Source of the DNA: Lactobacillus johnsonii ATCC 33200
GTDB taxonomy: Bacteria; Bacillota; Bacilli; Lactobacillales; Lactobacillaceae
Length of the DNA: 64,000 nt
NCBI RefSeq assembly: GCF_000159355.1
Contig: NZ_GG670121.1
Location: 57,958-121,957 of the forward strand
Reading direction: 5' to 3'
Shown here: positions 52,172 to 64,000 of the stretch, piece after piece
Layout: each line of letters opens with the position of its first letter
Numbering within the stretch: the first letter of the stretch is position 1
Made by a program: the position numbers and the translations under genes
The notes under the pieces: generated by a model
Databases searched by the model: none
The model's input: only the letters and a program-made list of their open reading frames with translations
Told to the model about the DNA's origin: nothing

Positions 52172-53521
52172 ATGAGCAAAGAAATTACAAACGATCTTAT
52201 TAATAATTTCGAAAATGACTTTAACTCAAGTAAAGCTAACAAAATTGCGGCTCGTGCTGCTCAAGAAAATGGTATTTTTAAAGCTAGTCAAAATCTACAA
52301 ACTAAGATTGACTTAGACCCAACTTTTTCAATTGAAATTGATACTGGCAAAGTTGCTAACCAAAAACAATCTGGTCGCTGCTGGATGTTCAGTGCTTTAA
52401 ACACAATGCGTCATTCAATTCAAAAGAACTTCAAAATTAAGGACTTTGAATTATCTCAAAATTACACTAACTTCTGGGACAAATTTGAAAAGTCAAACTG
52501 GTTCTTCGAAAATGTGATTGCTACTGCTGATAAAGACTTAGGCGATCGTAAAGTTGCTTTCCTATTTGCAACCCCACAACAAGACGGTGGTCAATGGGAT
52601 ATGCTTTGCGGAATAATTGAAAAATATGGTATTGTTCCAAAGAAAGTTTACCCAGAAACTGCTAATGCAATTAATTCAAGTGCTTTAAATGATACTTTAA
52701 ATACACTTCTTAGAAAAGATGGTCTTGAATTACGTAAGATGGTTCAAGATGGAAAGAGTGAAGAAGAAGTTCAAGAACGCAAAAACGAAATGCTTAAAGA
52801 AGTTTACCGTATTTTAGCTATTTCTCTTGGTGTTCCACCTAAAACTTTTGACTTTGAATACAAAGATGATGATGGTAACTACCATAGAGATGCTGCCTTA
52901 AGTCCACAAGACTTCTTTAAAAAGTATGTTGGTTGGGACTTAAGTGAATATATTTCCACAATTAATGCACCGACTAAAGACAAGCCTTTCCATAAAGTAT
53001 TTTCTGTTGAATACTTAGGAAATGTGGAAGGTGGCCGTCAAGTACGTCACTTGAACTTACCAATTGATGAAATGAAAGATTTGATTATCACTCAACTTAA
53101 AAACGGTGAAGTTGTTTGGTTTGGATCAAACGTTGTTAAAGATTCCGAACGTCAAGCCGGCTTACTTGATACTGAATTATACAAGCGTGACGACTTATTT
53201 GACGTTGACTTTGACATGTCTAAAGCTGACATGCTTGATTCAGGCGAAAGCATGATGGACCACGCAATGGTTATTACAGGTGTTGATTTAGTCGATGGCA
53301 AGCCAACTAAGTGGAAGATTGAAAATTCTTGGGGTGAAAAGCCTGGATTTAAGGGTTACTTTATAATGAGTGACAGCTGGTTCGATAAATTTGTTTACCA
53401 AGCAGTTATCAACAAGAAATACCTTAGTGATGACTTGAAGAAGGCTTTTGAAGAAGGCAGTAAAGATCCAATTCAATTACTTCCTTGGGATCCAATGGGT
53501 GCTTTAGCTAATAATTATTAG
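52172..53521 (+). CDS. pepC: Aminopeptidase C
   Basis: 449 residues of the bleomycin-hydrolase family (C1B). Catalytic Cys in KQSGRCWMFSALN, His in MDHAMVITGVD and Asn in KIENSWG. The C-terminus, which lies in the active site and sets aminopeptidase specificity, ends GALANNY. Cytoplasmic hexamer that trims casein-derived peptides. AAGGAGGATC precedes the ATG, and a TATAAT is at 52138-52143. Confidence 0.97.
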   Translation: MSKEITNDLINNFENDFNSSKANKIAARAAQENGIFKASQNLQTKIDLDPTFSIEIDTGKVANQKQSGRCWMFSALNTMRHSIQKNFKIKDFELSQNYTNFWDKFEKSNWFFENVIATADKDLGDRKVAFLFATPQQDGGQWDMLCGIIEKYGIVPKKVYPETANAINSSALNDTLNTLLRKDGLELRKMVQDGKSEEEVQERKNEMLKEVYRILAISLGVPPKTFDFEYKDDDGNYHRDAALSPQDFFKKYVGWDLSEYISTINAPTKDKPFHKVFSVEYLGNVEGGRQVRHLNLPIDEMKDLIITQLKNGEVVWFGSNVVKDSERQAGLLDTELYKRDDLFDVDFDMSKADMLDSGESMMDHAMVITGVDLVDGKPTKWKIENSWGEKPGFKGYFIMSDSWFDKFVYQAVINKKYLSDDLKKAFEEGSKDPIQLLPWDPMGALANNY

Positions 53522-53526
53522 AAATA

Positions 53527-53572
53527 AAAAATCATTCAGAATGCAACATAAAGCAAACTGAATGATTTTTTA
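53527..53572 (+). terminator. pepC terminator
   Basis: AAAATCATTCAG / CTGAATGATTTTT with an 18-base loop and T-rich tail. Confidence 0.85.
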
Positions 53573-53680
53573 TTTTATCTATCTTTCATATCTAAAAATA
53601 TAAAATTAATTTCTTTCACTACAGCTTTCTCTCTTACTTTATAATAATAGCAGTCATTAAGTAAAAAAGGATCTCATACA

Positions 53681-54783
53681 ATGCCTAACATATTAACAAA
53701 ACGTGTTTCAATGATTGAATTATTTTATGATCTTGTGTTTGCTTATATGATCTCGCAAGCAACCAGTTTGATTCATCATTTACAGCACGGAACTATTTCG
53801 CCTGTTTCATTTTTGATCTTTGCAGTTATCGTGATTGTCTTCATTAATTCTTGGATGGTTCAATCCGTTTTTACTAACCGCTATGGATCATCGAGTTGGA
53901 CAGATATTACTTTTACTTTATTGATATGATGATTTTGCTATATATGTCCAACTCTTTTAGCAATACTAGTTCAAAAGATTTAACTACTTTCTTCCTGGCT
54001 GCTAGTTTACTATCTTTTACCCTCTTTCTTCAGTATCTAATTGTTTTCTTTAAATCGTCTAATTCAAACGATAAGAATATTGCTAAAGCCTTTTGCAGCA
54101 TTTTAATCTTTAGAACTCTTGCCTTATTAGTCGTTGGTCTTTCTAACACAAGCCTGGGTCGACTAGTTTATGTCCAAATGGCTGGAATGACTATTATTGC
54201 ATATCTATTCAAATTAATTCCAAACGTAGAAGAATTTGTAATTTTACTAACACAGTGTGTCACTGTTCTATATCTCTTCTACTACATTCTAATGTTTGTC
54301 GCATTCTTACGTTTACGTTACCAACAACCTAACCGTCCTCGTTCATTTAAAGTACCTAGTGGTAAAGTAGGAGCTTGGATTATTGCCGGTGTTGGCCTCA
54401 TTTTATCAATTTTCGGTATCGTTCTTGCCTTTTATCCACCAGCACAAGTTAAGACAGAAGTCGGATCTCCAGTAACTTATATAATTGTTATTGCAGTTTT
54501 AGTTGCGGTTGTATTACTTACCTGTTTAGGACTTTATCTTCTTTCTAAAAAGCATCCAAATTGAGTAAATCCAAAAAAAGAATTTGCTCCCTTTACTTGG
54601 GAAATTGAAGGATTACCAAAGCCTGAAAAAGTTATATCAAATATTCCTACTGTATTAATGTCTAAAAATCAGAATCCAATGGGGATGCCGATTAAGCGCC
54701 CATATAAACCTGATCAACAAGTAGCTAAATCAGTAGTTGATGCGGATAAACGGAATGAGTCAGTTGAAGAGAATCAAAGCTAA
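53681..54783 (+). pseudogene. Chimeric relic: LtrA N-terminus joined to an amino-acid permease C-terminus
   Basis: After AAGGATCT the frame begins as a low-temperature-requirement A (LtrA) protein (RVSMIELFYDLVFAYMISQA). It shifts one base near 53920 and continues with LtrA-like helices (IDMMILLYMSNSFSN, then GRLVYVQMAGMTIIAYLF). At about 54230 the content changes to the end of an APC amino-acid permease (YLFYYILMFVAFLRLRYQQP, RPRSFKVPSGKVGAWIIAG). A TGA at 54562-54564, where Trp would fit, precedes the permease tail (VNPKKEFAPFTWEIEG, ending at 54783). The permease part resembles glutamate/GABA-antiporter-type proteins. A deletion fused two neighbouring genes, and further lesions followed. 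Confidence 0.7.
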
Positions 54784-54810
54784 TTTATAGTAGACTCAAA
54801 ATATATTTCT

Positions 54811-54858
54811 ATCCTGTTGATGAATATTTCTTATATTTCATCAACAGGATTTTTTTGT
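54811..54858 (+). terminator. Terminator after the chimeric relic
   Basis: ATCCTGTTGATGAA / TTCATCAACAGGAT stem (14 pairs) followed by TTTTTTG. The right arm is part of a direct repeat seen again at 56338. Confidence 0.85.
54839..54852 (+). repeat. 14-bp direct repeat flanking the IS3 element, left copy
   Basis: CATCAACAGGATTT, identical to 56338-56351. It is the right arm of the terminator above. Confidence 0.7.
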
Positions 54859-54885
54859 TTAAAAACCTTGCTTAACTTTAACTAA

Positions 54886-56339
54886 TGAGATGAAAAAAGG
54901 AATCAAACAGCTCTTTGATATGAGCCCAAAAATTAGAATATATTATTAAACTGTTTGATTTAAAACCATATTTCGATATTGAATCGGAGTATGTTTTTTT
55001 ATTGAGCTCTTAATTCTAAAATTATTATAGTAATAAATATACTCTTTGATTGCATCTTCTAGTTCATCTAAATTCTTAAAATTTTTTCAAAGCCATACCA
55101 CATTTCTCGCTTTAAGATACCAAAAAATCCTTCCATTAATCCATCATCTAATGAATTACCTTTTCTAGACATTGATTGCTCAATACCATGATCTGTAAGC
55201 CGTTTTTGAAAGGTAGAATGTTGATATTGCCATCCTTGATCAGTATGAAAAATAAGACCATTTAAAGCAGGATGAGCTTTATAGGCTAGGTCAAGCATGA
55301 TCATTACTTGTTCTAAAACTGGACGGCGACTTAATGTATAAGAAATTATCTCATGGGTACACCCATCCATAATTGGTGATAAATATAATTTTTCGCCGTT
55401 TAAATGAAACTCAGTTATATCTGAATACCACTTTCTATCTGGTAAAATGGCTAAAAAATTGCGACATATCAAATTAGGTTTGATTTCACCTACAGTTCCT
55501 CGATAAATTGAATATCTTTTTCTACGTCTAAGGGCAATACCAAATAAATGCATCTTTTTCATCAGACGCTTTACTTTCTTATGATTGATTTTAATTCCTT
55601 CAATGTGCAATTGAGCTGTAATTCTTCTATAGCCGTAGCGATGTTTATGTTCCTCAAATATTTCTTTGATACGTTTCATGATCTGATGATTTTTTGAATC
55701 TTTATCATTTTGTTTTAGAACATAGTAATAATTACTTTTAGATAGGTGAGGTAAGTCAGGATTAGAATTGATTACATTTAATATGAAACTGACGGTTACA
55801 TGAAGTTCTTGCCTTAGTTCAGTAACCACCTGAGCTATTTCTGGTGCTTTTGGTTTTTTCTTTTGGAAACTAAGGCGCTCAATTTTTTACAAATTCGTTT
55901 TCGACAGTAAGCTTGAGATTCTGTTGTTTTAAGTCTTTTACTTGTTTTTGTAGTTCTTTGATTTGTCGGTCTTTGCTTTTCATGATGTGGTCTGCCTTTC
56001 TTATGATTAATGAAACTTGATTCGCTGGTTCATCGTTAATCAATATTCTTTTAATGGCAGTTTTCTTAAATTCTACTGAATAAGAAGAATATGATTTATT
56101 CAAGATTTTTAAGCCGTGAAGGTCTATTAGACGGATTAAATAATATAAATTGTCAGGTCTTACTCTATATTCTCTACCTAGTTGAGATAGTGATTTATGA
56201 TAATGTTTCCAATTATTGTAGATGTCAATTGTGTCTTGCTTAGATAATTTAGACATAATAAAAACCTCGAAATTCTTGTCCGAATTTCGGGGTTCATATC
56301 AATTTTCTTAGCTGCTTAATTCCTTCTTAAAACTATCCA
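54886..56339 (-). mobile_element. IS3-family (IS150 group) insertion sequence, inactive
   Basis: The boundaries are approximate. Diverged inverted repeats are visible: a core TGATATGAGCCC at 54916-54927 against TGATATGAACCC read from 56301, and an outer segment GGAATCAAACAGCT (54899-54912) matching GGAATTAAGCAGCT read from 56324, with spacer lengths unequal. Between them lie the two overlapping transposase frames. The outermost ends I prefer are TGAGATG at 54886 and TGGATAG read from 56339. No 3-4 bp target duplication is evident. The transposase is broken, so the element is probably immobile. Confidence 0.7.
54946..56256 (-). pseudogene. IS3-family transposase (OrfA/OrfB), two frameshifts
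   Basis: OrfA (from 56256) has a helix-turn-helix (SLSQLGREYRVRPDNLYYL) and a coiled coil (KDRQIKELQKQVKDLKQQN). The run at 55883-55888 appears one base short, causing the early stop VENEFVKN; with one more A it would read KKLSALVSKRKNQ and reach A AAA AAC, a classical -1 slippery site, passing to OrfB. OrfB carries the DDE triad: YSDITEF, FHTDQGWQYQ and DDGLMEGFFGILKRE. A second short run (55082-55087) cuts its last 40 residues, which otherwise end at 54946 with YRNMVLNQTV. Confidence 0.85.
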
Positions 56340-56351
56340 TCAACAGGATTT
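56338..56351 (+). repeat. 14-bp direct repeat flanking the IS3 element, right copy
   Basis: CATCAACAGGATTT, second copy, at the right edge of the element. Confidence 0.7.
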
Positions 56352-56458
56352 CTTATAGAATGTCAAGTATTGTCAAAAAGAAAAAAAGTGTATACTAAAC
56401 ATAACCCCAAAAGACTAGTCTTTTGGCAGTTTTCTGCTTATTATATGCTAAGCATTAA

Positions 56459-57661
56459 TTAATGAATCGCCTTAGAATAATTATAAAATTGATGTGTGTG
56501 AACCAAATTTATAATGGTACGATTCAAATGATTAGCACATGCAATTAAAGCTACCTTGTCATGCTTATTGAAAGGTGGCTTTTTTAATTTGTAATAATAA
56601 TTAATTAAATGGTTTTGTATTCTTCCTTGGTTTCTTAACATGCTCCGAATCATATCGGTCTCAACAACTCTACCTTGACTACTACCTCGGCGATTAATAG
56701 TATCATTTTTTTAATATTTTCCGGACTGATATCTATTTAGATCAAGTCCTAAAAACACATTGAGTTGCTTATAATTATCAAAGCGAGAGATATCTCCTGC
56801 AAAGCCCAATAATAAAGCACTATTTAGCTGACCAGCTCCAGGAATACTAGAGATAAATTTAAAATTATCCAAAGAAGCAGCTGTTTTAATCAATTTATTT
56901 TGAATATAAGCTATTTCCTTATTGTAGTTTTCTATCTCATCACAATATTCTGAAATAATTTCAACTTCTAGAGAATCTGCTGGAACAGCAGGATAAGAGT
57001 TTTTAGCCGTTAACCAAACTTGAGCACAATAATTCTGAATTACATCCTTGTGTATTCGCTTATTAACTGCCTGATAAACCCTGTTAGTCATCTCCTTAAG
57101 AGTTAGTCCTACCAAAAAATCAGGATGACAATACATTCTAAACATTTGAAGAGCCAAAACTGCATAAGCATTTTTAAAAATTTGATTTAATTCTGGAAAA
57201 GTAATTTCCAATCCAGACCGAAGAAAATTGATTATTCTAGTTCTACACTTAATAAGTTGTCTGTATCTCAAAGACAAAATCCGCAATGAATCATATGGCT
57301 AAGTAGATTGCTTATTACAATGATTCTTTATTTCTGACAATTGCGTTGCACCTAATAACGCTAATTTAAAAGAATCATTCTTATCAGTTTTATTTCGTCT
57401 TAAAGAAGCCATTCTTAATTTGGCTTCTAAGAGATTTAGTTCATAAAATCGAACCTTTTTACTTTTTAGATAAGCAGTTAATTGTGCTGAATAAACACCT
57501 GTAGTTTCAAATATTATTACAGTATCAGACTTAATGTACGAATTTAATATTTGAAAACCACTTTTATTATGTTCGAATTTAAAAGTTACTTTTTCCACTT
57601 CTTTTGATATCAAGGTCGCATGATTTTTACCTTGACTAACATCAATACCAATAATATTCAC
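56459..57661 (-). pseudogene. IS110-family DEDD transposase with two in-frame stops
   Basis: From 57661: RuvC-like domain with IIGIDVSQGKN (first D), IFETTGVYS (E) and RRNKTDKNDSFKLAL (D pair), then an amber codon at 57299-57301 in the same frame. The protein goes on with LRYRQLIKCRTRIINFLR, and the Transposase_20 domain with SSIPGAGQLNSALLLGFAGD, which includes the region of the catalytic serine. A TAA at 56711-56713, again in frame, is followed by NDTINRRGSSQGRVVETDM and an end at 56459. About 400 codons, the usual length. Confidence 0.85.
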
Positions 57662-57845
57662 CTAATCACCTCATTTTAAATTAATTGAGGCAAATATTTA
57701 TTTTTAGCTTAATTTCTTGATTATACGATCTCTCAGATCCACACCCTTAATCTAGTTTTATTAAAAATAAATATTAATGGGCCCGTTTGACAATCGAATT
57801 TAACATTCCTTTCTGTTGTCGACCTCAACCTCAATCTAAGTATAA
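57662..57845 (-). ncRNA. Candidate bridge-RNA region of the IS110 element
   Basis: In IS110-group elements the structured RNA that pairs with target and donor DNA is encoded in the non-coding end upstream of the recombinase. These 184 bases are non-coding, sit in that place, and contain small hairpins (GATCT CTC AGATC at 57727-57739). I have not folded it, so this is position-based inference only. Confidence 0.3.
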
Positions 57846-57846
57846 G

Positions 57847-57892
57847 AAAAAAGGTAGATAAAAACATCGTCATGTTTCTATCTACCTTTATA
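57847..57892. terminator. Terminator of the kinase-like gene
   Basis: AAAGGTAGATA / TATCTACCTTT, extended by further pairing (AAACAT / ATGTTT) around a four-base loop, with six T on the minus strand. Confidence 0.88.
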
Positions 57893-57923
57893 CTTTAGGG
57901 TGTTTGACAAAGAGCCTTTTTTA

Positions 57924-58859
57924 TTACCAAATATGTAGCAAACGTGTGGGATCAATCTTACTTAAATTAAATTGATGAACATGCTGGTGTTCATTCTCTG
58001 GAAATTCTTTTACAAAATCAGCAATATTATATAGCCCAGTTGAATAAGACCAAACTCCCTTTACTTTTCGAATAGGATCTAACATTTCATTTCGAATTGG
58101 ATATGCAGAAATTAAAAAGTGCTTATGGTGAAATTTAAATACAAAATATGGAAGCCTAAATTTTTCGATTACTTCTTCTCTAGTTTTACCTAAAGTTATA
58201 ACGTTTCTATATGTTCCGTATTTCTTAGTAAATTCATCATTAAAAGAAAAGTAAAAGTTAGAAATATGCACATGTGGAAAATCTTCTGGTCTTACCTTAT
58301 CTGGTACACAAATCACATGTGAATACTGATCTAAATTCTTTTCTTTTTGACTTAAGGCCCGTTCCATTCCATTCGGTAAAATTGAATAAGCCCAAGACGG
58401 AACTTCCGGATGAGCTTTATATTGCTCATACATCATTTTAATTACGTCAGGTTTCACCCAATCATAGTGCATTCTAACCTGATTACGCTGCAGTAAGCTT
58501 TCTAAAGTGTTATTTTGCATTAAATCGACTACAAATAATTCATAGCGATATTTTTCAACCCATGGACGAAAATGTTCAATTTTATCTGGCGTGATATGAG
58601 TTCCATCAACAATGATAGTTTCTCCATAGGCCATCTTATGCTGTACCAAATTATCAACCATTTGCTCTGTACGTACAGTAACATGACGTGGAATAACTTG
58701 ATGCAGGTGATCTGTACTTTCCTCATAATAAACCGTCAAATCAGCTAATAGCAGCCTAATTTCATCACGAGAAATAGCGTAAGGCTGCAAGTGGTGACGA
58801 GCAATAAAGGAAGATTTTCCAGATCCAGGTGCTCCTCTTAGTAAAAATATTTTACGCAT
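57924..58859 (-). CDS. Polynucleotide-kinase-like ATP-binding protein
   Basis: 311 residues. The N-terminal half is a P-loop kinase like the kinase domain of T4 PNK: FLLRGAPGSGKSSFIARH (Walker A), ISRDEIRLLLADL, TIIVDGTHITPDKIEHFRPW (Walker B region) and an arginine-bearing lid (LLQRNQVRMHYDW). The C-terminal 130 residues (HVHISNFYFSFNDEFTKKYG ...) are not recognised. RNA repair or a nucleoside kinase role is conceivable; neither a ligase nor a phosphatase domain is present. Single gene with its own terminator. Confidence 0.75.
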   Translation of the reverse strand: MRKIFLLRGAPGSGKSSFIARHHLQPYAISRDEIRLLLADLTVYYEESTDHLHQVIPRHVTVRTEQMVDNLVQHKMAYGETIIVDGTHITPDKIEHFRPWVEKYRYELFVVDLMQNNTLESLLQRNQVRMHYDWVKPDVIKMMYEQYKAHPEVPSWAYSILPNGMERALSQKEKNLDQYSHVICVPDKVRPEDFPHVHISNFYFSFNDEFTKKYGTYRNVITLGKTREEVIEKFRLPYFVFKFHHKHFLISAYPIRNEMLDPIRKVKGVWSYSTGLYNIADFVKEFPENEHQHVHQFNLSKIDPTRLLHIW

Positions 58860-58968
58860 TATTTTCTCCTACTCTACAAGAATTTGTTCAAATATACTCG
58901 TAAAAAATTTTACCATAAAAATACCTATACAAACTATTAAAAAAAGAGTAGACTAGTCGGCTACTCAA

Positions 58969-59646
58969 TCAATGTAGAATTTCTTTCTTTATAATATGCA
59001 AATTAGTATCAAAAGTATAAACAATTGGCTCTGCATTGGGCACCTCTACTTTTACAATATCCTCATTACTGATATCTTCAATTTTTTTAATCAAGGCACG
59101 TAAACTTGAGCCATGGGCTACAACCAATTGATCATGACCTGCCATTAATTCAGGTGCAATATGATCCCAAAAATAAGGCATTAATCTCTCCTGCGTTTGA
59201 TGTAGACTTTCTCCTTGGGGCATTAGACGCATATCATACTTTTGATATCTACGATCTTGCACGGGCTGCGTTAATAAAGGGGGCACACTGTCAAAACCAC
59301 GTCTCCATTCTAAGACTTGCTTAGTACCAAAAATTTTCTTTGAAACATCCTTATTAATACCGCGAAGTGCTCCATAGTGACGCTCATTTAAACGCCAAGT
59401 CTTAGTAATAGGTAAATATAAAAAGCTGCAAACATCCGCAATAATATTAGCTGTCATAATTGCACGCGATAAGACAGAAGTATGAATATGCGTTGGCACA
59501 AATCTGGCTATTTTTTCCACCTTAAGACCTGCATTTTTTGCCTGTTCAATCCCCTTTTTACTTAAAGGCACATCATTCCAGCCCGTATAAACATTGTCAC
59601 GATTAGCTATACTTTCACCATGCCTAACTAAAACTAATTTGGCCAA
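58969..59646 (-). CDS. gpmA: 2,3-bisphosphoglycerate-dependent phosphoglycerate mutase
   Basis: 225 residues from TTG at 59646, which follows AGGTGAGAAG; the upstream frame would include that site. LVLVRHGESIANRDNVYTGWNDVPLSKKG holds the phospho-histidine of RHG, RLNERHYGALRG the catalytic glutamate, and VVAHGSSLRAL the second histidine. It may be a second copy; glycolytic gpm usually stands elsewhere in lactobacilli. Confidence 0.88.
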   Translation of the reverse strand: MAKLVLVRHGESIANRDNVYTGWNDVPLSKKGIEQAKNAGLKVEKIARFVPTHIHTSVLSRAIMTANIIADVCSFLYLPITKTWRLNERHYGALRGINKDVSKKIFGTKQVLEWRRGFDSVPPLLTQPVQDRRYQKYDMRLMPQGESLHQTQERLMPYFWDHIAPELMAGHDQLVVAHGSSLRALIKKIEDISNEDIVKVEVPNAEPIVYTFDTNLHIIKKEILH

Positions 59647-59667
59647 CTTTCTTCTCACCTACTTCAT

Positions 59668-59910
59668 TTAAATCATAAAAAACAAAACAATTCCGGTAAT
59701 GGTAAAAACGACTCCTAATATTGTAAAGGAAATGATATCAGCTTTACTATCAGATGGAATACCAGTAAGCAATTTTTTTGTTCCATTAATAGAATCACTT
59801 TGAATTTCTTTCGTTGCTACTTTATGTTTTTGATAACGATTGTAGGCAGTGTATAAATCCCATAATCCAATTAATAAAACTATGACTGCAACCCAAATAT
59901 TTACCTTCAT
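59668..59910 (-). CDS. Small membrane protein of unknown function
   Basis: 80 residues from ATG at 59910, after AAGGATGATAAATAAA. Two spans (IWVAVIVLLIGLWDLYTAY and IISFTILGVVFTITGIVLFF) and a polar middle (KHKVATKEIQSDSINGTKK). It overlaps nothing but starts at the stop of the gene upstream, so the two are coupled. Confidence 0.65.
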   Translation of the reverse strand: MKVNIWVAVIVLLIGLWDLYTAYNRYQKHKVATKEIQSDSINGTKKLLTGIPSDSKADIISFTILGVVFTITGIVLFFMI

Positions 59911-59911
59911 T

Positions 59912-60169
59912 TTATTTATCATCCTTGTGTATGCTTGTGCCATTTACTTTTTGGTCTAAGTTTCGAACTGCTTTCTTAAAAGCTTTAACCGAATTCTGAT
60001 AAGCTTTGCCACCGTTTTGTTTCAAAAAATCCCCAGCTTGTTGTCCTTTTTCAGTTAAGTGGTCTTTGATATCGGGCCAATCATTTTCAGCAAAATCTTT
60101 AAATTGGTCTGTAGCTTTCTTTTGATAATTTTTTAGATTTTCTTTTAGATCATTAGTATCGAATTTCAT
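59912..60169 (-). CDS. Small hydrophilic helical protein of unknown function
   Basis: 85 residues, lysine/aspartate-rich amphipathic helix (NLKNYQKKATDQFKDFAENDW ...) like YtxH/CsbD-type stress proteins but without a clear match. Good AAGGAGAA site. It is the first gene of a pair with the small membrane protein. Confidence 0.65.
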   Translation of the reverse strand: MKFDTNDLKENLKNYQKKATDQFKDFAENDWPDIKDHLTEKGQQAGDFLKQNGGKAYQNSVKAFKKAVRNLDQKVNGTSIHKDDK

Positions 60170-60232
60170 TTTTTCTCCTTAAAATAAAAGGCTTTGCCCC
60201 TATTTTACCAAATAGCAGCAAAACCAGATTAA

Positions 60233-61117
60233 CTAATCTTCTTTATCATCAAAAATCATTTTATCACTAATTCCACGTGTGCATTCTGCTTGAAGTGTCA
60301 CATGGTTAATTCCAAGCGGCTTTAATTTTTTTGCAATTTCTGTGTATATCTTTTCTAATTGCACAGCATCTAAATTTTTATCCACATTAATATGTGCATC
60401 TAACATCGTCACATTATCTGAATATTGCCAAACATGCACATGGTGAATGTTATTCACATGTGGACAAGATAAAACTAATTCATTTATCTTATTTAAATCA
60501 ATGCTAGGATTCGTTTCCATTAAAATATTAGCTGCTTTAATAGTAACTTCATAAGCTTCTTTAAGTAAAAAGACAGAAGCTGCTATCGTTAAGAATGGAT
60601 CGACCCAGTAAATTTTCCAAATTGAAATCACAATCGCTCCAATTACAACTGCTACACTAGTTATTGCATCTGAAAGCATATTTAAAAATGTAGCTTTTGC
60701 ATTAAGACTCGTCTTAGCTTCCTTCATAACTACTAGCATAGAAATTAGGTTAGCAGCTAAGCCAATTAAAGAAACAATTAACATGATTTTTCCTTTAATC
60801 GGTTCTGGATGACTAAAGCGTTGAATTCCTTCGATAAATAAATAAATACTGATTACTATTAAAATTATCCCATTAGTAAAAGCTGCTAGTATTTCCGCTC
60901 GATCATAGCCAAAAGTCTTGCTATTATTTCGCTTTCTCTTAGCAATTAAATTAGCAACAAAGGCTAAAATAATTGATCCAACATCGCTTAAATTATGTAC
61001 GGCATCCGAAAGCAGAGCAAGTGAGCCTGAAACTGCTCCACCGATAAATTCCGCAATTGTAATAATAATATTTAATAAAGTTACCCAAAAATAACGTAGT
61101 GATGATTTATTCTTCAT
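60233..61117 (-). CDS. Cation diffusion facilitator (zinc-type exporter)
   Basis: 294 residues, six spans. The metal site residues are LLSDAVHNLSDVG in TM2 (HxxxD) and FLNMLSDAITSVAVV in TM5. The cytosolic C-terminal domain contains HVNNIHHVHVWQYSDN and DAHINV. The TM2 histidine fits zinc or cadmium specificity (CzcD/ZitB type). It is divergent from an ArsR-family regulator across a region with an 11-bp inverted repeat, so metal-induced expression is likely. Confidence 0.9.
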   Translation of the reverse strand: MKNKSSLRYFWVTLLNIIITIAEFIGGAVSGSLALLSDAVHNLSDVGSIILAFVANLIAKRKRNNSKTFGYDRAEILAAFTNGIILIVISIYLFIEGIQRFSHPEPIKGKIMLIVSLIGLAANLISMLVVMKEAKTSLNAKATFLNMLSDAITSVAVVIGAIVISIWKIYWVDPFLTIAASVFLLKEAYEVTIKAANILMETNPSIDLNKINELVLSCPHVNNIHHVHVWQYSDNVTMLDAHINVDKNLDAVQLEKIYTEIAKKLKPLGINHVTLQAECTRGISDKMIFDDKED

Positions 61118-61131
61118 ATTTTTTCTCCATA

Positions 61132-61191
61132 AATATATCGAATTTGGTATACTTATTACAGAAAGTAATAATATTCCATTTTCGATATATT
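61132..61191. promoter_or_regulatory. Divergent promoter region with inverted repeat
   Basis: AATATATCGAA (61132-61142) and TTCGATATATT (61181-61191) are perfectly inverted, and TATTAC / GTAATA lies between them. These are candidate operators for the ArsR-type protein, controlling both genes. Confidence 0.6.
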
Positions 61192-61212
61192 GTCAATAAG
61201 AGGTGCTAAATT

Positions 61213-61539
61213 ATGACACAAACAGATACAAATTTAGTCAGTGAAGCAGCCAAAATCTATAAAGTTTTAAGCAATGGTAGACGAATTTCAATTTTATTTT
61301 TTTTACGGAATGCTTCAAAAGAAGTCGACGTCTCAACAATTGCCACTACTCTCGACCTTGCGCAGCCGGTTGTATCAAAACAATTAGGTATTTTAGAAAA
61401 ATACAATTTGGTTAAACATCATAAACATGGAACTCATGTCTTTTATTTTTTAAATGACCCTGACGTTTTATCAATGATTGATGCCATGATTGAACATGTA
61501 GAACATACTGCCAAAGAACATCCCACAAACTTATACTAA
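61213..61539 (+). CDS. ArsR/SmtB-family metal-responsive repressor
   Basis: 108 residues: winged helix with IATTLDLAQPVVSKQLGILEKYNLV (recognition helix) and the wing HHKHGTHVFYFL. The last helix, DPDVLSMIDAMIEHVEHTAKEH, has D-x-D and H-x2-H at the places of the CzrA alpha-5 zinc ligands (one ligand is D instead of H). It is thus probably a zinc sensor for the CDF gene. Confidence 0.88.
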   Translation: MTQTDTNLVSEAAKIYKVLSNGRRISILFFLRNASKEVDVSTIATTLDLAQPVVSKQLGILEKYNLVKHHKHGTHVFYFLNDPDVLSMIDAMIEHVEHTAKEHPTNLY

Positions 61540-61540
61540 A

Positions 61541-61568
61541 AAAGATGCAACTTGATAGCTGCATCTTA
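61541..61568. terminator. Terminator between convergent genes
   Basis: AAGATGCA / TGCATCTT with a ten-base loop, between arsR and the histidine phosphatase gene. Confidence 0.7.
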
Positions 61569-62255
61569 TAAATTTGGAATGTCAGTGTTTTTTACACCAT
61601 AATTAATTATTTTAAATTTTCCATTATCATCAATTATTCCACGTGTCACACTGCCATTATCTGGAAAGGGAATATCGTGATCATGTGTAGTTTGATCCCA
61701 GTATTTAATTCCCAAAGTCTTAATAAAGTCTCCGTGAGACACAATTAAAACTCGTCCTAGCCCTTTTGTTTCTTCAGCTAGTTGGCTAACAGCTTGGTCC
61801 ATTCGATTATTGAGGGCTTCTGCATCTTCTGCTAAATGACGTGGATCAGCTTTCTTAGTTGCTTCACGAAAATCATGGATTCCTAGGGTTTGAATGATTT
61901 TTACCACATCATTTGTTGGTTTCATCCCTCCAGCTACAGCAACTTTTTCCCAAGTTTCGTCAATATCGTCACCTTCAAAAGTACCAAAGAATACTTCACG
62001 AAAAGCTGGAAGTTTTTTTATTTTACCAATCTCAGAAACTTCATTTGTATCAGCAATTAAGTGAACTGTATCAATGGCTCGTTTTAAGTCAGAACTATAC
62101 ATTTTATCAAAATGAACCTGAGATAAATTAGATGCTGTTATTTTTAAGTCATTAATTCCTTTTACAGTTAGTGGAGAATCAGCCCAGCCTTGAACTTTAT
62201 TCAACTGATTAAACATTGTTTCCCCATGTCTTACTAAATAAACTTCAGTAGCCAT
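61566..62255 (-). CDS. Histidine phosphatase family protein
   Basis: 229 residues of the phosphoglycerate-mutase-like superfamily. VYLVRHGETMFNQLNKVQGW has the phospho-histidine, REVFFGTFEGD the acidic residue, and VLIVSHGDFIKTL the second histidine. Lack of the GpmA-specific N-terminal segment and a different middle argue for a broad phosphatase rather than a glycolytic mutase. The substrate is unknown. Confidence 0.85.
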   Translation of the reverse strand: MATEVYLVRHGETMFNQLNKVQGWADSPLTVKGINDLKITASNLSQVHFDKMYSSDLKRAIDTVHLIADTNEVSEIGKIKKLPAFREVFFGTFEGDDIDETWEKVAVAGGMKPTNDVVKIIQTLGIHDFREATKKADPRHLAEDAEALNNRMDQAVSQLAEETKGLGRVLIVSHGDFIKTLGIKYWDQTTHDHDIPFPDNGSVTRGIIDDNGKFKIINYGVKNTDIPNL

Positions 62256-62517
62256 TTTTACCCTCTTTTCTTAAATTGTTTCACAAATTTTCTTTCAATT
62301 ATCTCAATGTTAACAGAATATTGCGTTAATTCAAGTATTTTTAAAAGCAACCCTATATTTAGTGTTTCACAAAATTCTTAGTACAACATATCTTAGTTTT
62401 ATCTATAGTTATATACGCAATTGTATGTTTATTTTTTTAATCTTTAAATTAAAAAATACTATTTTAATGGGTTAAAATAAAAGTTGTATAGTACTTAATA
62501 AAAAGGAGGACTTTTTT

Positions 62518-63102
62518 ATGACAAAAGTTGCTGTTGTCTTCGCAGATGGCTGTGAAGAAGTTGAAGGACTTAGTGTCGTTGATGTACTACGTCGTTTAGA
62601 TATTGATTGTGACATGGTCGGTCTTGATAAAAAAGAAATTAACGGAGACCATCGTATCTTACTAACCTGTGATAAAGTTGTGGATGATTCACTTTTAGAG
62701 TATGACTTAGTAGCTTTTCCAGGTGGAAGAACTGGAGCTTTAAACCTTAGAAACAATGAAAAACTAGCTAAGCTTATGATTCAAAGAAATAAAGAAGGCA
62801 AATGGGATGCAGCAATGTGTGCCGCTCCGATTGCTTTAGGTCACTACGGCTTGCTAGAAGGAGCTAACTACACCTGCTATCCTGGCTTTGAAAAAGAAAT
62901 TGAAAAAGAATGTCCAAACGGCCACTTTAGCACTGATATTACAGTTGTGGATAAAGAACACAAAATCATCACCAGTCGTGGACCAGCTACAGCCTGGGCA
63001 TACGCTTATACAATTGCTCAAACCTTAGGTTATGACACCAAAGAATTAGAAAAAGCAATGCTTTATGATTATCTAGCCAAAAATATTAATCAAAGCCTCT
63101 AG
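62518..63102 (+). CDS. DJ-1/PfpI family protein
   Basis: 194 residues. VAVVFADGCEEVEGLSVVDVL has the conserved glutamate, and AAMCAAPIALGHYGLL the nucleophile-elbow cysteine. ITSRGPATAWAYAY is the C-terminal signature, as in YajL/DJ-1. Proposed roles are stress protection, deglycation or chaperone. Strong AAAAGGAGGA site; a long 260-base upstream region holds no other gene. Confidence 0.9.
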   Translation: MTKVAVVFADGCEEVEGLSVVDVLRRLDIDCDMVGLDKKEINGDHRILLTCDKVVDDSLLEYDLVAFPGGRTGALNLRNNEKLAKLMIQRNKEGKWDAAMCAAPIALGHYGLLEGANYTCYPGFEKEIEKECPNGHFSTDITVVDKEHKIITSRGPATAWAYAYTIAQTLGYDTKELEKAMLYDYLAKNINQSL

Positions 63103-63114
63103 TTAACCACATCG

Positions 63115-63151
63115 AAAAAGAGACCAGATTTTATATCTGATCTCTTTTTTC
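63115..63151 (+). terminator. Terminator after the DJ-1/PfpI gene
   Basis: AGAGACCAGAT / ATCTGATCTCT with one G-A mismatch and a five-base loop, then TTTTTT. Confidence 0.85.
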
Positions 63152-63335
63152 GTATATAACAGCTAAAATAAGCAAATAGCTTTTAATCTATCACTTAAAT
63201 TAAAAGCTTGTGTAGTTAATATCAAGCTTACGGTCTTGTCTCAGCACTGCACTACACTTAATTACAATTAATTTTTCTCTAAGCACTTATTATACTTAAT
63301 GTAATATCTTTTATTTTAGATTAAACTAATTTATT

Positions 63336-64000
63336 TTATAAACGTGCGATTTGATAGCCATTTCTTAAAAAATGCTCCATTTCTTCTGGTTCTCTACCAG
63401 TTAAGCGATGAAAGTCATCAGATGTTGCACTAAGAAGTCCCTTAGCTCCTCCAGCATACATTGATGCAAGTTCTTTTCCATCGCCTTCAGCAGCATAAAT
63501 CTTTGCAAATTCATCAGTTGTTACAGGTGCATAGCCAATTTTATGGTCAGTGATTCGAGACATAATATATGATAATTCAACCATATTATAATTTTTATCC
63601 ATACTTAACAGATAAGTTTGCCCTTGATCTCGCATTACTGGTTGCATGGCTAAACAAGCAATTGCATGAGCACTATCATTTCTTGTAATAAAGGATAATG
63701 GTTCGGCCCCAACTGGATAAATAATATTTTTTCGTTTAATTAGTTCTTCTAGATATGGGACCAGTGGATCCGCATACAAACTATTTTTTATAATACTGTA
63801 TTCAATTCCTGAGCTAGCAAGTCTTCTTGGTACATATGCATAAAATGGAGACATTACAAATGGATTATTTTCTTGATCTGCAAAAAAACTTACAAAAATC
63901 AATTTAGATTTAGCTTCTTTTACAACTTGTAAGACATTTTCAAATTCTGTAATTATTTTCTGCAAGTTATAAGTAATGCTGGGGATATAAATTACCAGAT
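63336..64000 (-). CDS. NmrA-like NAD(P)-binding oxidoreductase, cut by the window edge
   Basis: The frame is open to the right edge of the window (IPSITYNLQKIITEFENV precedes the first TTG/ATG-like codon), so the N-terminal Rossmann part lies beyond 64000. What is visible is the atypical SDR/NmrA C-terminal half: SKLIFVSFFADQENNPF (end of the central sheet), YSIIKNSLYADPLVPYLEEL and the FITRNDSAHAIACLAM region, ending HFLRNGYQIARL. Likely an NAD(P)H-dependent quinone reductase or redox sensor; the substrate is unknown. Confidence 0.8.
   Translation of the reverse strand, partial: LVIYIPSITYNLQKIITEFENVLQVVKEAKSKLIFVSFFADQENNPFVMSPFYAYVPRRLASSGIEYSIIKNSLYADPLVPYLEELIKRKNIIYPVGAEPLSFITRNDSAHAIACLAMQPVMRDQGQTYLLSMDKNYNMVELSYIMSRITDHKIGYAPVTTDEFAKIYAAEGDGKELASMYAGGAKGLLSATSDDFHRLTGREPEEMEHFLRNGYQIARL

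Follow-up and report, generated by a model that had tools for sequence, protein, structure and literature searches.

Why should the beginning of an ltrA gene run directly into the end of an amino-acid permease gene on the chromosome of Lactobacillus johnsonii ATCC 33200? The stretch analysed here (the window) comprises 64,000 nucleotides of contig NZ_GG670121.1 (positions 57,958 to 121,957), and an original prediction made from its letters had described one gene at 53681-54783 in which an LtrA-like start and the end of an APC permease were joined in a single frame near 54230. Both parts are indeed present on the forward strand. The LtrA-like part occupies 53681-54168: its first ORF (53681-53929) exceeds the Pfam LtrA cut-off of 31.9 bits (3e-14, 53.5 bits), a second piece (53896-54228) taken alone falls below it (6.5e-4, 19.5 bits), and tblastn similarity extends over 53711-54168, where residues 1-68 and 68-153 of the LtrA protein of relative G006 match at 89.7% and 90.7% in two frames. 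The permease part occupies 54160-54783, corresponding by tblastn to residues 346-553 of the intact 553-aa G006 permease (93.75% identical), with an AA_permease_2 match on 54229-54561 (9.3e-11). The tblastn and DNA matches place the junction at 54159-54168, about 65 bases earlier than had been proposed.

The two parts share one frame at the junction itself, as predicted, but the single open gene does not survive inspection. The first ORF ends after 82 codons and LtrA similarity resumes in another frame from about 53911, which locates a frame change at approximately 53911-53914; in the permease part a TGA at 54562-54564 lies ahead of the final TAA at 54783, and no open stretch is longer than 222 aa (53896-54564, starting at a TTG). 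The frameshift falls within a T run and, this being a draft genome, may be a sequencing error. The TGA is a substitution at a position occupied by Trp in the three relatives compared. The first ORF passes the Pfam gathering score, but the locus holds no intact full-length ltrA gene, because of that frame change and because permease sequence follows past 54168. To judge from its frames, the chimera is a doubly broken pseudogene that would yield no functional protein. Codon changes unique to the window's permease part (14 synonymous and 10 nonsynonymous; 11 and 3 in G036) hint at relaxed selection, although they are too few for proof.

An intact fused protein in relatives, according to the original prediction, would point instead to a true fusion gene. 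When 53600-54850 served as a DNA query against 60 genomes, namely the window's own and 59 relatives, with six candidates scored per genome, matches were found in 22 of the 60 including the window's own (21 of the 59 relatives), and no match spanned the LtrA/permease junction in any of the 59. A functional fusion, for which the frame shared at the junction might speak, is ruled out for practical purposes by this result together with the frameshift and the internal stop. Comparison with strains that keep the genes separate, which had been suggested as a check, was also informative. In G006 the two sides lie on different contigs, LtrA on C10 (88% DNA identity) and the permease on C3 (94%); in G036 there is a close permease side (92%), and the LtrA side is represented only by distant paralogues elsewhere. 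The intact permease has 553 aa in G006 and in L. taiwanensis DSM 21401 (L034, 97.5% to the permease side of G006) and is a 560-aa ORF in G036. The window genome has paralogues of both genes that look broken by tblastn, the permease paralogue (G000:C32:978511-980051, L040) by a frame change near its start and the LtrA paralogue (G000:C30:140503-140943, L041) by an in-frame stop. The GadC-like permease paralogues adjoin PepC-like peptidase genes, identified by the Peptidase_C1_2 profile in L040 (6757-9156) and by pepC-like DNA matches in G006 (contig C13) and G036 (C1, near 588000-595000).

What separates the two genes in relatives is, to judge from its coding content, a serine-rich repeat (SRRP) adhesin with its accessory Sec (aSec) system. 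Two intact genes anchor the site in the window: a pepC-like aminopeptidase gene on the left (52172-53521, forward strand; 449-aa ORF, Peptidase_C1_2, PF03051 at 684.3 bits, 97% to G036 and G006) and a kinase-like P-loop gene on the right (57924-58859, reverse strand; 311 aa, AAA_33), recognised by ORF, profile and relatives. Window positions 19965-53609 and 57917-64000 are collinear, in inverted orientation, with the complete genome G036, where 35.6 kb lie between the two flanks. Within this interval lie an IS, the permease, a second, inverted IS, secY2, asp1, asp2, asp3, a 788-aa ORF in the secA2 position, gtfA and gtfB, followed by a 5210-aa ORF and then by a glycosyltransferase, another IS and a sugar transferase. 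SecY2, Asp1, Asp2, Asp3, GtfA and GtfB all exceed their NCBIfam cut-offs. Serine makes up 44.4% of the 5210-aa ORF, which repeats SLSNSVSMSE 374 times and has an LPQTG anchor at its end; its N-terminus scores only 22.3 of the 45 bits needed for the serine-rich adhesin N-terminal model. Read from the kinase gene, G006 contig C3 carries an LPXTG-type adhesin with MBG and Muc_B2 domains, the permease (opposite strand), secY2, asp1-3, secA2, gtfA, gtfB and, near the contig end, the start of the SRRP gene, whose match contains one TAA. For the secA2 position the best-fitting NCBIfam model is SecA2 (854.9 of 930 bits), scored on a 645-aa piece that is cut by the locus start. Contig C10 continues with the SRRP end, a glycosyltransferase, the sugar transferase, ltrA and pepC, so that the assembly break must lie in the serine repeats. 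In G006 ltrA, too, is truncated: its product has 219 aa and covers profile positions 5-179 of 356. The pepC-kinase site of relatives thus contains an SRRP/accessory Sec locus, with SecY2, SecA2, Asp1-3, GtfA and GtfB beside a serine-rich LPXTG protein. The gene order is compatible with the coordinates given for L. johnsonii MR1 in PMC12188725, where asp1 extends to 792,764 and the gene of the LPXTG protein LXB09_03700 begins at 796,306; we infer that the gap between them holds secY2 and the permease.

The G036 island differs in that it has no ltrA and its permease is in the other orientation between two IS copies. At this locus (L038 6877-12069) the permease, flanked by two inverted IS3-type copies, reads opposite to those of the window and G006, as though recombination between the IS copies had turned it round. 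An inversion in the window lineage was considered and rejected: a flip in G036 is more likely, since the window and G006 share one orientation and the G036 copy is the one that lies between inverted IS copies.

Every island gene that we searched for genome-wide, namely secY2, asp1, asp2, secA2 (part), gtfA, gtfB, the SRRP N-terminus and the sugar transferase, is missing from the window genome. Among 41 genus genomes, the window genome included, SecY2 exceeded its cut-off in five and Asp2 in 10; the window genome has neither, its sole SecY-type match reaching 203.9 bits against 249.6. The SRRP N-terminus, present in four of seven genomes queried (in more than one place in G036, G006 and G015), is absent. 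DNA of secA2 (part), gtfA and gtfB returned one 26-base match only, that of secY2-asp1 and of the sugar transferase with the ltrA 3′ end returned nothing, and the permease 5′ half found only a 70% paralogue. To judge by these genes, the window genome does not possess an SRRP/accessory Sec locus. With neither the ltrA 3′ end nor the permease 5′ half to be found, the reciprocal product is absent, which fits a deletion and not an inversion. Between the anchors (53522-57923) no remnant of the LPXTG adhesin was detected by tblastn with a 2133-aa part of the G006 protein (E 0.01).

We consider it very probable (roughly 0.87) that the chimera is a deletion scar, left when about 20-30 kb with an SRRP adhesin and accessory Sec island were removed at a short homology. 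The ancestor would have carried the island between pepC and the kinase-like gene, with ltrA at one edge and the GadC-like permease towards the other, both in the same direction and separated by two glycosyltransferase genes, the SRRP gene, secY2, asp1, asp2, asp3, secA2, gtfA and gtfB. Recombination between a short homology in ltrA and in the permease would then have excised the intervening DNA and joined the two gene ends, and the joined remnant would subsequently have decayed by frameshift and stop codon. The lineage would thereby have lost a glycosylated SRRP adhesin and its own export route, with a presumed effect on adhesion.

Short repeats at the junction had been suggested as a check; the window has ten bases there, TCGACTAGTT (54159-54168, forward strand), identical in the permease genes of G006, G036 and L034 and matched at eight of ten positions in the ltrA of G006, where the exact run shared at the breakpoint is four bases; the lineage's own ltrA is gone. 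When places in the two G006 genes are paired at random, ten bases match with no more than two mismatches at p = 0.001, and an exact run of at least four bases across the breakpoint arises at p = 0.025. Deletion at short homology is likely, with the caveat that the original ltrA of this lineage can no longer be compared. An IS-mediated join was rejected: there is no IS at the junction, and the nearest begins about 730 bp downstream. Measured on G006, the deletion would span 15.5 kb (C3 from 125987 to its end) and 4.0 kb (C10 1-3998) plus the unassembled repeats; measured on G036 it would span about 30.2 kb (390068-420268), an IS peculiar to that genome included. The origin of the chimera by deletion, as originally proposed, is well supported by the separate genes in relatives, the short homology and the lack of any junction-spanning match.

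The evidence from the window genome comes from one draft assembly of 32 contigs, and it might be asked whether two distant pieces were wrongly joined, the more so as the frameshift in the T run could be a sequencing error. This is very unlikely: the junction is inside a contig of 550,939 bp, the flanks keep the G036 order, the searched island genes are missing although the assembly is rated 99.99% complete, and the stop at 54562 is a substitution replacing Trp.

The site between pepC and the kinase gene varies among relatives. It is empty in four of six further relatives for which the pepC region was fetched (G011, G030, G005 and G009), where the protein matches to pepC and kinase end 64-73 bp apart. 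In G015 the two genes lie at opposite ends of a one-contig genome, about 10.6 kb apart if circular; the part of the gap that was read (L052 11442-19817 and L051 1-1984) contains an ORF that carries Muc_B2 domains and an LPXTG anchor; of 15 proteins compared, only the neighbours matched there. The accessory Sec and SRRP genes of G015 are located away from this gap. No kinase match was present on the 12 kb fetched around pepC in G025. Given these empty sites and alternative contents, the site looks like an insertion point for surface-protein genes.

Sequence divergence across the region is uneven. Except in the pepC stretch, the identity of the window to G036 (96.5-98.4%) exceeds that to G006 (88-89%), which makes loss from a lineage that had the island the simpler reading; within the pepC stretch the values are 96.8% and 95.8%. 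Between the window and G006, fourfold sites diverge by 8% in pepC versus 15-49% in seven flank genes: radA (47%), dut (49%), the kinase gene (33%), gltX (15%), two phosphoglycerate-mutase-like genes (38% and 22%) and a cation-transporter-like gene (35%), all but the kinase gene named by eye. Between G036 and G006, the difference is 7-15% in secY2, asp1, asp2, asp3, the sugar transferase and the permease, 23% in gtfA and 36% in gtfB. The low divergence in pepC and in most island genes suggests that the two lineages exchanged pepC along with much of the island, although gtfA and gtfB argue against one uniform tract. In pepC, codon bias may contribute, since gltX is also low and pepC differs fairly little (21%) between the window and G015.

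These comparisons bear on a further possibility, namely that ltrA and the permease once stood side by side without an island, that a small deletion fused them, and that the aSec/SRRP island entered later in other lineages. In no genome examined do ltrA, the aSec cluster and the permease share a contig, G006 has a truncated ltrA edge and G036 none, and four relatives have no insertion at the site at all, as this history would allow. It would, however, require the island to have entered twice, or after the split, as the window is nearest to G036 on both outer flanks; moreover, the island occupies the same site in G006 and G036, the L034 contig has the permease side, and the match coordinates bring LtrA-side and permease-side matches close together in none of the 59 relatives. 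The window also shares with G036 the low fourfold-site divergence of pepC from G006, to which codon bias could contribute, as in gltX. We judge this history improbable. Within the preferred explanation, loss of an island that had been present, there is a broader and more tentative reading that we hold at slightly less than even odds: the pepC-kinase gap may be an exchange site for an adhesin cassette, made up of SRRP and accessory Sec genes and sometimes a Muc_B2 LPXTG adhesin, which would pass from one Lactobacillus species to another through recombination in pepC and be deleted later. If so, island-free strains would carry datable scars that tell loss from lack of gain where aSec is absent in a host-linked way.

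After the permease part lies a hairpin (54811-54850, forward strand; 14-nt arms 54811-54824 and 54837-54850, 100% complementary) that is possibly the permease terminator. An IS3-type insertion element follows on the reverse strand (54894-56351), recognised from its ORFs and by comparison and shorter by about 70 bp, near 56010, than two copies in G036; the ten plasmid matches listed for insertion-element sequence reach only 71-75% and say little about the host strain. Part of the hairpin sequence, CATCAACAGGATT, recurs past the far end of this element (window 54811-56354), and because of this repeat it looks as if the element inserted into a terminator. Beyond it, an IS110-type transposase gene (56711-57661, reverse strand; ORFs and profile) is split into two ORFs. 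To the left of pepC, a LytR-CpsA-Psr gene (PF03816, 50940-52019) may be frameshifted: its open frame is 244 aa long (359 aa in G036) and is followed by a separate 87-aa ORF.

According to published work, SRRP/aSec presence is host-linked and strain-variable in L. johnsonii (PMC12188725) and L. reuteri (PMC6973325; PMC4667477), and secA2 and SRRP mutants of L. reuteri are impaired in forming mouse forestomach biofilm (PMC3873254). The Fap1-like LJ0391 is reported to be conserved in L. taiwanensis BL263 (PMC2997000) and is listed with the surface proteins that a pig isolate lacks or has only in fragments (PMC3080392). The rodent enrichment of accessory Sec genes in L. johnsonii has already been published, in a study that also describes type strain ATCC 33200 as a poor mouse coloniser (PMC12188725); our addition is a physical scar that argues for loss in this lineage. 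We found no description of such a scar in the literature searched, including the accessible part of PMC12188725, and one may still be in print. A deletion scar is a real but ordinary kind of event. Its value is that a scar in an island-free relative makes gain versus loss testable strain by strain, the same junction indicating one loss event.

Three known systems provide a frame for this locus. The intact permease of relatives resembles the GadC antiporters, matching their models almost end to end, but it scores far under both cut-offs (386.8 of 650 bits for TIGR03813 and 310.6 of 640 for NF053662 in G036). The original prediction had linked permeases of this class to glutamate-dependent acid resistance and had suggested that an acid-response gene was lost. 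This is not supported: the glutamate decarboxylase model TIGR01788 reached its cut-off in none of the 41 genus genomes, of which the window genome is one (four others have weak partial matches), and no gadB-like ORF was seen, by eye, among those listed beside the permease in G006 or G036. On the decarboxylase and GadC scores we rejected acid resistance. With regard to the LtrA family (PF06772), the 5′ part of the chimera matches, but only the beginning of the domain remains, in a broken frame. The third parallel is with the SRRP/accessory Sec (SecA2-SecY2) clusters of lactobacilli: the genes missing from the window form such a cluster in G036, whereas the window, devoid of any cluster gene, retains only the fused parts of its two neighbours.
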